Positions 25,354 through 60,116 of a stretch of 64,000 nt of DNA are shown piece after piece. Position numbers and translations under genes: made by a program. This DNA comes from Terriglobus aquaticus (GTDB lineage Bacteria > Acidobacteriota > Terriglobia > Terriglobales > Acidobacteriaceae): the NCBI RefSeq assembly GCF_025685415.1, contig NZ_JAGSYB010000001.1, forward strand, positions 3,658,001 through 3,722,000, written 5' to 3'. Below the pieces are notes generated by a model. It was not told the origin of the DNA. It saw only the letters and a program-made list of their open reading frames with translations, and made no database searches. Positions within the stretch are counted from its first letter, which is position 1, and each line of letters opens with the position of its first letter.

Positions 25354-25430
25354 CGGGGAGTGGCTCAGCCTGGTAGAGCACCTGGTTCGGGACCAGGGGG
25401 TCGGAGGTTCGAATCCTCTCTCCCCGACCA
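25354..25430 (+). tRNA. tRNA-Pro(CGG)
   Basis: A complete 77-nt cloverleaf is present. The acceptor CGGGGAG (25354-25360) pairs with CTCCCCG (25420-25426), giving the C1-G72 pair typical of bacterial proline tRNAs, and is followed by encoded ACCA. The D-arm is GGCTCAGCCTGGTAGAGC-like. The anticodon stem CCTGG/CCAGG encloses TT-CGG-GA with the anticodon at 25388-25390. The T-arm is GGAGG-TTCGAAT-CCTCT. It reads CCG codons, which are frequent in this GC-rich genome. Confidence 0.96.
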
Positions 25431-57503: not shown

Positions 57504-58861
57504 TCATTCGACCGAATCGAGTACTGGCATCTCTGCCTCCTCCTCGAGTTCGCGAATGTAGTCAAGAACGGCCTCTGAGAAGCCGTCGATGTGGTTCCAC
57601 TCACCGTATCCGACGCCGTGCTTCGCAGACGCGACGTTGATCATGTAGCCGCGGCCTGACGGCGCCGGAACCGGATCCGCCGACTGCTCGTCCGTGATGA
57701 CCACAATGCGGTCACATCGCTCGCGAACACTGCGGAGCGCCGAACCGAGATGCGTTCCCGCATGCTGCTGACTGACCTCCATGGCGTCACGCAGGGCGAA
57801 GCCGCGACGCGCCGGCACATACTGCAGGCCGTTGGAGAAGGTGTAGAGGCTCACCGACCCCGCGACCTCCCGCAGCAGCATGGCCAGACCATACGCCTCG
57901 TCGGTGCGCAGCATCTCCGACCGTCCAGACAGCGGGGACACCATCGATCCCGAGACGTCCACCAGAACGACCGTGTGGCCGGTCAGGGGCTGCGCCTCCG
58001 CGAGCGAGCGGAACATCGCCCGCTCCAGAGCACCCTCCAACCTTGGCGCATGGCGAGCCGCGGCAAGATAGCGGAAGGGCAGAACGCGGTCCGTCCGCAT
58101 CGTGTTCAGGCCGTCGACGATCGCGGTCTCCGGCACATTCGCCGCCTGCATGTTTCGCAGGTTGCGCAACAGTGCCAGGGCGCCCAGCTTGCGCTCGGCG
58201 AGCAGACGTTCCCAGTGCGCACGCTTGTCTCCACCGGACGAGAGCGCTACTTCCCAGGTATCGGGCGTGGCGAGTTCGCCCGCGACGAGACGCTTCCAGA
58301 GCTGCGCCTGCGCGTCATCGACGGGCTTGGCGTGGCAGAGGAAGAGCACGTCGCGCAAGCGCACGCTGCCGGCACGGTCGTACTTGGCCAGCGCGTACTC
58401 GTCGAAGCGGGTGAAAGCAGAGGCAAGCCCCTTCTTCACCTGCGCAGACAGCGGAACCCGACCCTCGCTCCAGTACATGGCAACGAATCCGTGAGTTCGT
58501 CTGCACGCTGGATAACGCGGGCAAGCGTCCGTGCGACCAGGGCGCGATGAGTGCTGTAACGAGCCATCTCGCGCACCAGCAGCAGCGGTGCGTGACGCAG
58601 ATGCATGCGGGTGCGCGCTTCGACAGCCAGATCCGCCACGGAGACAGCATCAACCTGCGGCACCAGCTCTCGAATCCGGCTTGCAATGGTTACGCCACTC
58701 TCGTAGAACTCACCCTCCCACAGCATGCATGCCATGACCGAGCGCCGCAGCGCCTGATACGGCGAGAGGACAACAGCGGGCGCTCCCTCGTGAGTGCGAG
58801 GAGTCGCGGGACGTGGCTGGAAGGGGACCAGCCGGCTAAGGTTCAATACATTCAACTTCAT
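57504..58861 (-). pseudogene. rsr: Ro60/Rsr-like TROVE domain protein split by a frameshift
   Basis: Two overlapping minus-strand frames make one protein. The N-terminal part (58861-58436, MKLNVLNLSRLVPF) holds the start of the HEAT-like TROVE ring (YQALRRSVMACMLWEGEFYESG, MARYSTHRALVARTLARVI). The C-terminal part (to 57504) continues with MYWSEGRVPLSAQVKKGLA and ends in a von Willebrand A domain with the metal-site motif DVSGSM. The natural transition would read DELTxFVAMYW; one base is missing near 58487-58488. The joined length, about 453 residues, is normal for bacterial Ro60. It binds Y RNAs and misfolded RNAs. The gene may be a pseudogene, a sequencing error or a two-part gene. Confidence 0.85.
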
Positions 58862-58920
58862 TGGACACCTCCTCCTTTCGAGAAGTGGCGGTTGTTGATC
58901 CGCCGCGAGGGCGGGTGGAT

Positions 58921-59030
58921 CGCCGGGGAACAGGCGAGTACGGCATAGCTACCATGACGATTGCCACGGGCAGGGATCGAACCTGCTACCTCCGTCTTGC
59001 GACGGCGCTCTCCCAGATGAAGCCGTTCTC
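58921..59030 (-). ncRNA. Y RNA-like structured RNA with tRNA T-arm (copy A)
   Basis: This RNA lies between the small Cys-rich gene and the TROVE gene. A 9-bp closing stem with one mismatch pairs 59022-59030 with 58936-58944 (minus strand GAGAACGGC / GCCGTACTC). Inside, in transcript order, are TTCATC, a hairpin CCGTC-GCAA-GACGG (58992-59005), a perfect T-arm GCAGG-TTCGATC-CCTGC (58970-58986), and a 5-bp hairpin CCGTG/CATGG in the acceptor position. The closing stem runs into a GTTCCCCGGC block (58921-58932). Stem, TTCATC, T-arm and block are shared with the copy at 59442-59558. The anticodon-like loop has only four bases, so it is not a tRNA. Confidence 0.7.
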
Positions 59031-59049
59031 TTCACCACCGGCGCAGAAG

Positions 59050-59388
59050 TTAGTCTTCGTTATCGTCATCGTCCTCATCGTCGGAAACGGCGACGCTGAT
59101 CGCGGTTTCAGCGAAGCCCAGGCCGGCCTTGAAGCCTGCATTCTTCGCCGGGCGGTCCTCCACGCGGATCGCCAGCTTCTGCATCTGCTGCCACGACGGG
59201 CGATTCTTGTCGTAGTAGCCGGTGCACTCATGTACCGGGAACGGCAGCAGGAGATTGGGTTCCACCCGCGTGCAGATCATCACCTGCTCGCTTTCGCGAA
59301 AGCCGGAGAGGATGAGTCCACAGGTGCAAGTGCTGCACAGGGCGACGGACCCGATGGGAGTCGCACCTTTCATGTTGAGCTTGCCCAT
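59050..59388 (-). CDS. Small Cys-rich, acidic-tailed protein inside the Ro60/Y RNA locus
   Basis: About 112 residues, starting MGKLNMKGATP. Cysteines occur as LCSTCTCG (near 20-25), then VMIC and HEC, so a zinc-ribbon-like site is likely. The pattern GFRESEQVMIC...PFPVHECTGYYD resembles small uncharacterised bacterial proteins I cannot name. The C-terminus is strongly acidic (DDEDDDDNED). It is flanked on both sides by T-arm-bearing RNAs on the same strand and followed by the TROVE gene, suggesting a role with Ro60 or its RNAs. A longer start at 59454 would run into the upstream RNA. Confidence 0.7.
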   Translation of the reverse strand: MGKLNMKGATPIGSVALCSTCTCGLILSGFRESEQVMICTRVEPNLLLPFPVHECTGYYDKNRPSWQQMQKLAIRVEDRPAKNAGFKAGLGFAETAISVAVSDDEDDDDNED

Positions 59389-59441
59389 GGCAAGGTCTCT
59401 CTTTCTACTGGCGCATCGTCCAGAGTCTGGGCCATAAAGCT

Positions 59442-59558
59442 GGCCGGGGAACAAGCGAGAACGACGGACGGTGCTCTATCCACTGAGCTACGCGGCACGG
59501 TGTCGCGGCAGGATTCGAACCTGCGACAACCCGCGTCCTAGGCGATGAAATCGTCCTC
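59442..59558 (-). ncRNA. YrlA-type Y RNA: circularly permuted tRNA mimic (copy B)
   Basis: In transcript order the RNA reads as follows. The 9-bp closing strand GAGGACGAT (59550-59558) is followed by TTCATC. GGAC-gc-GG (59531-59538) comes next, then the T-arm GCAGG-TTCGAAT-CCTGC (59508-59524). An acceptor-like stem CGCGACA/TGCCGCG is closed by triloop CCG (59491-59507, one C-A mismatch). TA and the D-arm GCTC-N8-GAGC (59473-59488) follow. CCGTCC (59466-59471) pairs with GGACgcGG, and GTCGTTCTC (59457-59465) pairs with the closing strand. Thus T-arm, acceptor and D-arm occur in permuted tRNA order, entered through the anticodon-stem end. A GTTCCCCGGCC block follows. The nearby Ro60 gene supports a Y RNA identity. 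Confidence 0.75.
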
Positions 59559-59587
59559 TACTGCCACCGCTCGACTTATTGCAGCGC

Positions 59588-59636
59588 GTAACTCTGCTAT
59601 CTCGGCGCGTTACGAAAGCCACGCGCCGAGTTAGCG
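59588..59636 (-). ncRNA. Long GC-rich hairpin within the Y RNA cluster
   Basis: CTCGGCGCGT and ACGCGCCGAG form a perfect 10-bp stem around a 10-nt loop. TAACTC and GAGTTA just outside can pair as an alternative outer stem that shares the CTC. It lies between copies B and C and may be part of either transcript or a processing hairpin. Confidence 0.45.
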
Positions 59637-59648
59637 CACCTATAGCGG

Positions 59649-59721
59649 GAACTAGCGGTCCGGGCGTAACTGGGACTCGAACCCAACCTGCACAGCTCCG
59701 GAGATCTGTGCAGGCCGACCG
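59649..59721 (-). ncRNA. Structured RNA with tRNA T-arm (copy C)
   Basis: In transcript order, CGGTC (59717-59721) pairs with GACCG (59656-59660). Inside are a 9-bp hairpin CCTGCACAG/CTGTGCAGG with a 10-nt loop (59687-59714) and a T-arm TTGGG-TTCGAGT-CCCAG (59670-59686). The closing strand is followed by a TAGTTCCCGC block comparable with the GTTCCCC block after copies A and B. No D-arm or matching acceptor is present. It looks like a divergent third copy. Confidence 0.5.
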
Positions 59722-59733
59722 AAAAAGTAGCCC

Positions 59734-59758
59734 GTACCTATCGCCACGCGATAGGTAC
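59734..59758 (-). ncRNA. Perfect 10-bp hairpin followed by T-tract
   Basis: GTACCTATCG and CGATAGGTAC (59734-59743 and 59749-59758) form a perfect stem with a 5-nt loop. On the minus strand a TTTTT run follows eight bases later (59722-59726). It could be an intrinsic terminator or processing signal between units of the RNA cluster. Confidence 0.5.
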
Positions 59759-59765
59759 TGCTTTG

Positions 59766-59829
59766 CCAGGGGAATGAGCGCACACGGAATCCCAACAGGG
59801 ATCGAGGGACAGTCGAAGTACCCGCGTGC
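59766..59829 (-). ncRNA. Possible fourth small structured RNA
   Basis: GCACGCGG (59822-59829) pairs with CCGTGTGC (59780-59787) over eight positions with one G-U. The interior includes an ATCCC-TGTT-GGGAT hairpin and a TCGATCCCTG segment like part of a T-arm. The closing strand is followed by CATTCCCCTGGC, resembling the block after copies A and B. It is weaker than A-C and has no intact T-arm. Confidence 0.35.
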
Positions 59830-59872
59830 TTCGCCACCCGGCGAAGAATCGATTGCTGCAATGCTTAGGGAG

Positions 59873-60000
59873 TGCGTAGGACCCGGTGCGATGTTACTTG
59901 CAGGTGGGGAACCAACCCAGGAGCATGGCCCGGCGATCGCCACAAAAGCTAAACGCTTCCGGGGACCTACGCATCGTGTTGTGCGTTGTGATTAACATCG
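59873..60000 (-). other. Structured leader with interleaved complementary segments
   Basis: Two perfect 8-bp pairings interleave: CGATGTTA (59993-60000) with TAACATCG (59889-59896), and TGCGTAGG (59966-59973) with CCTACGCA (59873-59880), the latter extended by CCGG/CCGG. They can form either a pseudoknot or alternative folds. The region lies at the presumed 5' end of the RNA cluster. It also contains a TGGG-TTGGTTC-CCCA hairpin. No protein-coding gene is credible here. Confidence 0.45.
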
Positions 60001-60024
60001 GGCTTCTCCTACGCAGGTGTGACT

Positions 60025-60055
60025 ATCTCATGCGCGTCAGGCAGAGCGCAAGGAG
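60025..60055 (-). promoter_or_regulatory. Tentative promoter of the Ro60/Y RNA locus
   Basis: On the minus strand TTGCGC, 18 bases and GATAGT occur between the cupin stop codon and the first structured RNA. Both boxes are only partial matches to sigma-70 consensus. I did not see a sigma-54 promoter, which drives some other RNA-repair operons. Confidence 0.25.
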
Positions 60056-60116
60056 AAAGTAGACATAACTCAAATATTTTCGGTGTAAGAGGGGATGTAA
60101 CTTAGGCGAGCGCGGC

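Follow-up and report, generated by a model that had tools for sequence, protein, structure and literature searches.

Organization of the Locus

In a stretch of 64,000 nucleotides from Terriglobus aquaticus (NCBI RefSeq assembly GCF_025685415.1, contig NZ_JAGSYB010000001.1, positions 3,658,001 to 3,722,000), referred to as the window, a Ro60-type TROVE gene is encoded on the minus strand after an array of Y RNAs. From 60016 down to 57504, the locus comprises a structured leader, a short Y RNA, an RNA with a T-arm, a hairpin, a YrlA-like Y RNA, a 112-residue protein, a further Y RNA and the TROVE gene. The initial annotation, made from the sequence alone, had described a Ro60 locus with a multi-copy Y RNA cluster and a small extra protein; all of these are present, and the description turns out to be an understatement. 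Across relatives, the computations place the gene of a TROVE subfamily behind a series of structured RNAs with a common basal stem and different tops. These RNAs were searched for with R1, a covariance model of the main class (U class) trained on 32 RNAs from 31 of the 69 TROVE loci described below. The features of the window are as follows.

59873 to 60016, minus strand: conserved structured leader, recognized by its nhmmer relatives; outer helix CTGCGTAGGAG / TCCTACGCA, with a Shine-Dalgarno-like AGGAG in its 5' arm
59894 to 59998, minus strand: possible leader open reading frame (ORF) of 34 codons within the leader element, a coding candidate only
59765 to 59842, minus strand: short Y RNA with the common basal stem, an anticodon-like hairpin CGA-CTGTCCC-TCG and a second hairpin (R1 46.9 bits, E 6.7e-7; alignment of the short class)
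59638 to 59756, minus strand: probable Y RNA, tentative, with stem arms and a T-arm (59670-59686) in normal tRNA order
59601 to 59630, minus strand: perfect 10-bp hairpin between two Y RNAs, read from the sequence
59442 to 59572, minus strand: Y RNA of the U class, predicted to be a permuted tRNA; it has an anticodon arm with the loop CTAGGAC, a T-arm at 59508-59524, an acceptor-like hairpin and a D-arm (R1 106.1 bits, as a training row)
59050 to 59388, minus strand: 112-residue protein with four Cys and an acidic tail (ORF and family alignment)
58921 to 59043, minus strand: Y RNA of the I class, with a D-loop half plus GAGC, an anticodon-like arm, T-arm (58970-58986), acceptor-like hairpin and distal UAGCU (R1 64.5 bits, E 1.5e-10; class pattern)
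58436 to 58861, minus strand: N-terminal part of Ro60/TROVE in a first frame, matching intact relatives
57504 to 58478, minus strand: remainder of Ro60/TROVE with the vWA domain in a second frame (Pfam TROVE E 4.4e-14), intact in relatives

The three R1 matches in the window are the RNAs at 59442-59572, 58921-59043 and 59765-59842; elsewhere in the T. aquaticus genome, E values are 0.0037 or worse. The first two had already been listed in the initial annotation, which omitted the short Y RNA; its T-arms and its Cys-rich acidic protein are found at the positions given above. The RNA at 59638-59756 has no R1 match and is assigned on the evidence of its T-arm and stem, together with a relative that occupies the corresponding position in another locus (L077:3234-3322, R1 E 3.4e-5; L and G numbers are our handles for loci and genomes). 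The hairpin at 59601-59630 is a possible processing or terminator element. ARAGORN called a sole tRNA in the window, at 25354-25430.

Predicted Structure of the Main RNA Class

From the 5' end, a U-class RNA consists of the basal stem, a second stem, UACUUC, an anticodon arm, a variable region and a T-arm, followed by an acceptor-like 7-bp hairpin (often with a GNRA-type tetraloop), UA, a D-arm, the rest of the anticodon stem, the second stem, UUCCCC and the basal stem. We read this order as that of a predicted circularly permuted tRNA whose ring is opened inside the anticodon stem. The anticodon loop has the canonical 7 nt in the 32 RNAs compared, with U33 in 30, a purine at position 37 in all 32, a pyrimidine at position 32 in 31, and variable positions 34-36.

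The U class covaries strongly. Alignment A4 was made from sequence only, with 32 RNAs picked by motif and a structure hand-drawn on one of them; 94.9% of its cells are paired, compared with 38.4-47.3% when the partners are slid. Both sides have changed in 26 of 37 pairs, and none of 500 shuffles reached the observed values. A second alignment, whose 25 RNAs were chosen among R1 matches and therefore lean towards the structure, gave 87.3% paired cells (40.7-48.5% slid), with both sides changed in 30 of 36 pairs. Other phyla, unnamed bacteria or phages supplied 24 of these rows, and Acidobacteria one (L233). The two pairs joining the D-arm and the anticodon arm are 97.9% paired in this alignment, the small anticodon hairpin 75.7%, and the badly aligned inner acceptor pairs 38%. 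Covariation of the stems in related genomes had been named at the outset as a test of the Y RNA cluster; the stems covary in both alignments, and the cluster is not refuted. The anticodon arm of the U class rests on the conservation of its loop and on these pairs.

Rejoined pieces are also called as tRNA by ARAGORN. In a first pass, all 20 rows passing a feature filter (from 102 rows with a T-arm) were called, compared with 6/20 in native order, 0/200 shuffles and 147/200 constructs with acceptor halves swapped between loci. A second pass gave 42 of 47 and 31 of 32 rows (from 172 and 54 matches supplied), with 8/47 and 7/32 called in native order and 0/470 and 0/320 after shuffling. Because shuffling the anticodon part left 390 of 400 calls and shuffling the T-arm 19 of 400 (acceptor strand 288, D-arm 324), this test mainly shows the T-arm.

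Recurrence Within the Order and Specificity of the Model

Of 397 genomes sampled from the order, 70 encode TROVE; all 70 belong to one family, and they include Granulicella, Edaphobacter, Terracidiphilus, Occallatibacter, Bryocella and Acidicapsa. We fetched 68 loci, which with the window make 69; G252, whose contig starts inside the gene, was excluded. The neighborhood of TROVE and the small protein, for which the initial annotation had proposed a search, recurs in Acidobacteriota, with the protein in 57 of 69 loci (weak or partial matches such as L042 and L044 included) and R1 RNAs in 66 of 69. T-arm motifs lie mostly upstream of TROVE and on its strand. Downstream motifs occur in six loci (one each in L047, L056, L062, L074 and L102, five in L103), and antisense motifs in four (L037, L057, L074, L087), where they adjoin true tRNA clusters in L057 and L074.

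R1, the kind of new covariance model proposed at the outset, matches 232 times at E ≤ 0.01 across 84 sources, with a median of 3 and at most 7 per TROVE locus. It also matches in 35 of the 38 loci that contributed no training RNA, and has no match at E ≤ 0.01 in L073 (contig end), L102 and L103. Measured to the stop-to-stop TROVE frame with a tolerance of 420 nt, all 231 placed matches lie before TROVE and none after (the L069 match is unplaced), and the 209 matches measurable against the conserved N-terminal motif of TROVE all end before that motif. At E ≤ 1e-6, R1 is found in 64 of 394 genomes of the order, 59 of which are also TROVE-positive; among the 11 TROVE genomes without R1 at this threshold, 8 match at E ≤ 0.01, not all of them strongly. 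Of the five other genomes with R1, G242 is truncated at its R1 site by a contig end, and G328 keeps the TROVE start and then diverges. R1 finds nothing in 15 stretches that carry the small protein but lack TROVE. A TROVE-positive genome, G273, carries a second R1 site (L156 on contig C133; 61.3 bits) with no TROVE in the 8.2 kb fetched.

Use of the existing YrlA model (Rfam RF02553) had also been proposed. A scan of 54-64 kb with Rfam returned a single match, to YrlA at 43.7 bits on the RNA at 59442-59572, but this lies under the gathering cut-off of 69 bits, which none of 33 loci (18 + 15 scanned) reaches. The cut-off is strict, as it is not reached in L069 either, where the TROVE locus is of a different type.

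Two further observations concern the surroundings of these loci. Acido-Lenti-1 RNA (Rfam RF01687) occurs in the stretches around L055 (5866-5911) and L070 (5087-5133), and a gene with an ORF6N domain lies beside TROVE on the opposite strand in L075 (3599-4189) and, judged by eye, in L070, L072 and L080.

One Basal Stem with Different Tops

The shared basal stem consists of a 6-bp helix, one bulged U, GG/CC, an internal loop and an 8-bp helix, with conserved UUCCC and UACUUC. What sits on top of it varies: a complete permuted tRNA that includes an anticodon arm, only an anticodon-like hairpin, a tRNA that keeps the normal order or is joined via the D-loop, or a distinct module. In a broad sense these are bacterial Y RNAs, lying beside Ro60 and combining a basal stem with a tRNA-like or other effector module.

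The short class is represented by 52 R1 matches of at most 92 nt that have no T-arm by a strict motif; some of them show a weaker T-arm, and L059 is truncated where its contig ends. In 24 aligned short RNAs, 13 of 17 predicted pairs have changed on both sides. A class of ~157 nt (23 RNAs) shares the basal stems and carries a module of its own; both partners have changed in 24 of 40 predicted pairs.

The I class (37 rows) sits between the small protein and TROVE. Its D-strand was readable by script in 17 rows: GAGC occurs with a distal AGCT in 9 and without it in 2, and the local kind, with GAAG, GAGG or GGAG pairing with CUUC and no distal partner, accounts for 6, the reverse combination being found in none. 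This pattern has p ~0.002 for the script's 17 rows, by hand arithmetic that ignores kinship and under a rule chosen post hoc. By eye, L039, L066 and L074 also have GAGC and the distal partner, and L046 is readable both ways. Three RNAs of the local kind (L056, L057, L079) match the Rfam tRNA model across the D, anticodon and T arms.

At the expected place, the position of which was our choice, 62 of 93 hairpins have U33 and a purine at 37, and these display 26 different anticodons. Of these 62, 24 carry a GUN anticodon (GTT 13, GTC 7, GTG 3, GTA 1), a count uncorrected for relatedness, and 23 of the 62 canonical loops belong to RNAs shorter than 95 nt. In the short Y RNA of the window, position 37 is C.

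Arrays in Other Phyla and in Phages

A scan of contigs brought up 203 relatives of the TROVE subfamily; the best 80 were kept, and 30 of these were searched with R1, three of which lie outside the set of 27 non-Acidobacteriaceae loci. At E ≤ 0.05, R1 matches in 29 of the 30 and not in L236. Ro60 with an array occurs in Caulobacterales, Desulfobacterota, Firmicutes and phages, the R1-positive relatives including Asticcacaulis, Caulobacter, Phenylobacterium, Desulfobacterales, Pelotomaculum and Cellvibrio. One R1 match in L217 lies downstream of TROVE.

A TROVE relative is encoded in 80 of 50,697 phage records, in 56 of them over at least 80% of the protein. Four of five fetched phage loci have an array before TROVE, with 4 (L237), 3 (L238), 8 (L239) and 4 RNAs (L240, plus one weak match on an annotated tRNA); the fifth, from a crAss-like phage, has none. 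The R1 matches L237:3271-3402 and L238:3315-3446 overlap an annotated tRNA-Ser (L237:3269-3343) and tRNA-Thr (L238:3319-3386), respectively. The distinct Acidobacteriota variant envisaged in the initial annotation is therefore narrowed: since Ro60 with a Y RNA array occurs beyond this phylum, only the small protein marks the acidobacterial form.

The TROVE Gene of the Window

The second frame of the window carries the TROVE domain PF05731. A profile of 15 intact relatives matches a TROVE protein (PDB 9l5y, 3.7e-43) and Ro60 (9nen, 7.1e-9), and the DxSxS motif of the vWA MIDAS reads DVSGS throughout the 15-protein alignment and also in the window fragment. The TROVE gene had thus been correctly recognized from the start, but it is no single open frame, being split between 58436-58861 and 57504-58478. 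In 65 of the 68 fetched loci the frame is open across the split point, and the other three (L069, L102, L103) are divergent TROVE genes that did not align there. A programmed frameshift was considered and rejected, given the 65 open frames. Two other TROVE genes are split, L058 by Ns and the divergent L102 at another place.

Two basal-stem pairs of the RNA at 59442-59572 are broken in alignment A4, which may reflect either decay of this copy or an error in the assembly. We give about even weight to the view that the locus is decaying and non-functional in T. aquaticus and functional in its relatives, which is compatible with every reading discussed below. The split gene and the broken pairs speak for it, as does a weak small-protein match with a stop in G013, of the same genus. 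Against it, the small protein and the RNA at 58921-59043 appear intact, and a single-base assembly error is possible.

The Small Cys4 Protein and the Leader

In the family alignment of the small protein (n = 61), every member has C18, C21 and C39, and no fewer than 90% have C55; the acidic tail is found in many members. No fitting family was found in Pfam, NCBIfam (best E 0.0029, 3 of 38 members) or PDB, and AlphaFold models reached a predicted local distance difference test (pLDDT) score of 57.3 and then 65.7, with a best Foldseek E of 3.0 against PDB. Because of its four conserved Cys, the protein is probably a zinc-binding adaptor or regulator added in the acidobacterial form. In a search of the phylum it occurs in 22 of 396 genomes, seven of which belong to other families and have no TROVE in the fetched stretches. 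Among the TROVE loci outside Acidobacteriaceae, it lies beside TROVE in 1 of 27 (L214, Opitutia, perhaps a misbinned genome). In the TROVE loci examined, the small protein is an addition to the Ro60 array and not part of its core. L046, L051 and L059 hold a second, divergent copy in the same locus, and distant relatives occur in other Acidobacteriota families with no TROVE nearby (L135, L137, L139, L140 and others).

The structured leader seen in the initial annotation is conserved, with 50 nhmmer matches in a search that covered the fetched acidobacterial loci; these include the TROVE-less loci L128-L133 and L141. An ORF of 25-36 codons is present in 46 of 51 sequences (the matches and the window), has exactly 30 codons in 27 of the 46, and starts 7-12 nt past the Shine-Dalgarno-like motif, whose AGGAG sits in the outer helix. 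Differences are spread evenly over codon positions and synonymous changes are not enriched, a substitution pattern that does not favor conservation of a peptide and hence weakens the ORF reading. The element is a candidate leader or attenuator. Leader and small protein may form a unit of their own, as both persist in L128-L133 and L141, which have neither TROVE nor R1 matches.

Relation to RNA Repair Genes and Known Ro60 Systems

Beside the window locus, we found no gene for RtcB or PNPase, RtcA being outside that search; the single RtcB match (C1:83915-84997) and the single PNPase match (C1:727509) of the T. aquaticus genome both lie away from it. The initial annotation had reported neither as a neighbor, which applies to the window but not to all relatives. 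RtcB is encoded upstream of TROVE within the locus in L076 and L097, and Hen1_L and PNKP_ligase proteins stand directly before a Y RNA and TROVE in L071 (3795-7729). In one branch of the family, genes lying among the Y RNAs and TROVE encode a BCS1-type AAA ATPase (L036, L097) or a protein with an AAA domain (L076).

Statements taken from the cited papers refer to the parts of their text consulted. YrlA (RF02553) is likewise adjacent to Ro60 and combines a basal stem with a permuted tRNA-like T-arm, acceptor-like hairpin and D-arm (PMC11472068, PMC8394870); its relation to tRNA is described as circularly permuted (PMC11472068), and a review lists D, T and acceptor arms (PMC8394870). The arrays described here add an anticodon arm with a 7-nt loop, which is absent from the Rfam consensus and from the consulted text of these YrlA descriptions. 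They also differ from YrlA in their conserved basal stem and in having several classes per locus, and no YrlA match reaches the cut-off in the 33 loci scanned. The Salmonella rsr-yrlBA-rtcBA operon similarly unites Ro60, Y RNAs and RNA repair genes and, with its RtcB, is induced by tRNA fragments (PMC7790460), whereas the window has no adjacent RtcB, more Y RNAs and the extra Cys4 protein. Deinococcus RYPER (Rsr, Y RNA, PNPase) shares Ro60 and a Y RNA with the window (PMC4726728); here, in contrast, there are several Y RNAs with anticodon-like parts, and PNPase is not encoded beside the window locus. A survey of jumbo phages presents the TROVE proteins of some of them as an RNA-repair platform with a tRNA-like partner (PMC7824862), and its consulted text describes no RNA arrays.

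Interpretation of the Array

Arrays of tRNA-like shapes on one handle suggest a particle that handles, repairs or shields tRNAs. Ro60 would bind the common basal stem, since this is a helix with one bulged base and in that respect similar to the site of vertebrate Ro60, a lower stem from which a lone cytidine bulges (PMC4726728). The tRNA-like tops would engage enzymes acting on tRNA, and the particle could then sense, sort, repair or shield cleaved or threatened tRNAs. That the locus encodes such a Ro60 (Rsr-like) ribonucleoprotein handling tRNA damage, with roles as repair adaptor and shield included, is a proposal drawn from comparative sequence evidence that we hold at about even chances.

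Several observations weigh against it. We ourselves selected the RNAs of both main alignments, by motif for the first and among R1 matches for the second, and what ARAGORN recognizes in the rejoined pieces is mainly the T-arm and not the anticodon arm. R1 matches occur without TROVE in the stretch available in G101 (which keeps the small protein and one R1 RNA), in G274 (no TROVE in 3.4 kb after its one match) and in G404 (none in 1.4 kb after the match), as well as at the second site of G273. In the window itself, the TROVE gene is frame-shifted and the basal stem of one RNA is damaged. Of 12 genomes that we chose for testing, only 3 had RtcB, and the small Cys4 protein fits no known family and also occurs without TROVE.

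Two other functions, which partly overlap with the tRNA-damage particle, have to be weighed. The Y RNAs could tether Ro60 to PNPase and gate its substrates as in RYPER, several Y RNAs providing several gates or partners and the likeness to tRNA being only a docking shape. Such a decay machine is established for D. radiodurans (PMC4726728, PMC8394870), and T. aquaticus encodes PNPase; however, the conserved anticodon loops and the RNAs that consist of an anticodon hairpin alone would go unexplained, and PNPase does not neighbor the window locus, the one locus examined in this respect. We find this account rather doubtful for the present arrays. Still somewhat less probable, in our judgment, is a decoy library, whose RNAs, in bacteria as in phages, would bind or divert proteins that attack tRNA, anticodon nucleases among them. 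The canonical loops, the variety of their anticodons with many GUN among them, and the phage arrays would fit such a role, and competition with an anticodon nuclease has been named as one possible role of YrlA (PMC7790460). According to the same paper, the Salmonella nuclease does not cleave YrlA; moreover, no nuclease partner was identified, the GUN excess is uncorrected for relatedness, and some of the RNAs have no tRNA-like top.

For the U class, remnants or pseudogenes of tRNA and chance T-arm repeats are ruled out by covariation and permuted order; for the RNAs near TROVE as a whole, an origin as tRNA gene remnants or chance T-arm repeats has tRNA-like pieces and the depositors' annotation of two phage copies as tRNA-Ser and tRNA-Thr in its favor, yet is made extremely improbable by the permuted order, the common basal stem, the covariation and the place before TROVE.

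The boldest reading, an unlikely one, would make the Ro60 arrays libraries of both decoys and adaptors. One protein could hold many differently rewired tRNAs and bare anticodon stem-loops, which would catch enzymes that cleave anticodons or hand cleaved tRNAs over for repair in conflicts between bacteria and phages, to which Acidobacteriota would add a zinc-binding partner and a leader that possibly reads tRNA state via translation.

Ro60 with Y RNAs and the permuted mimicry of tRNA are already known. As far as checked, the anticodon arm in the mimic, the several topologies per handle, the Cys4 partner and the size of the arrays, with as many as seven matches per locus in bacteria and eight in one phage, are new. 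Literature searches, which covered titles and the starts of abstracts and only some of which were aimed at Acidobacteria, found no such array shown in Acidobacteriota; earlier papers on bacterial Y RNAs may hold some of this. The Rfam YrlA model misses the class at its cut-off, and in two phage records its members overlap features annotated as ordinary tRNA. The arrays offer a natural dissection set: one stem that carries bare hairpins, permuted tRNAs or differently connected tRNAs could separate the roles of nuclease decoy, repair adaptor and decay tether.

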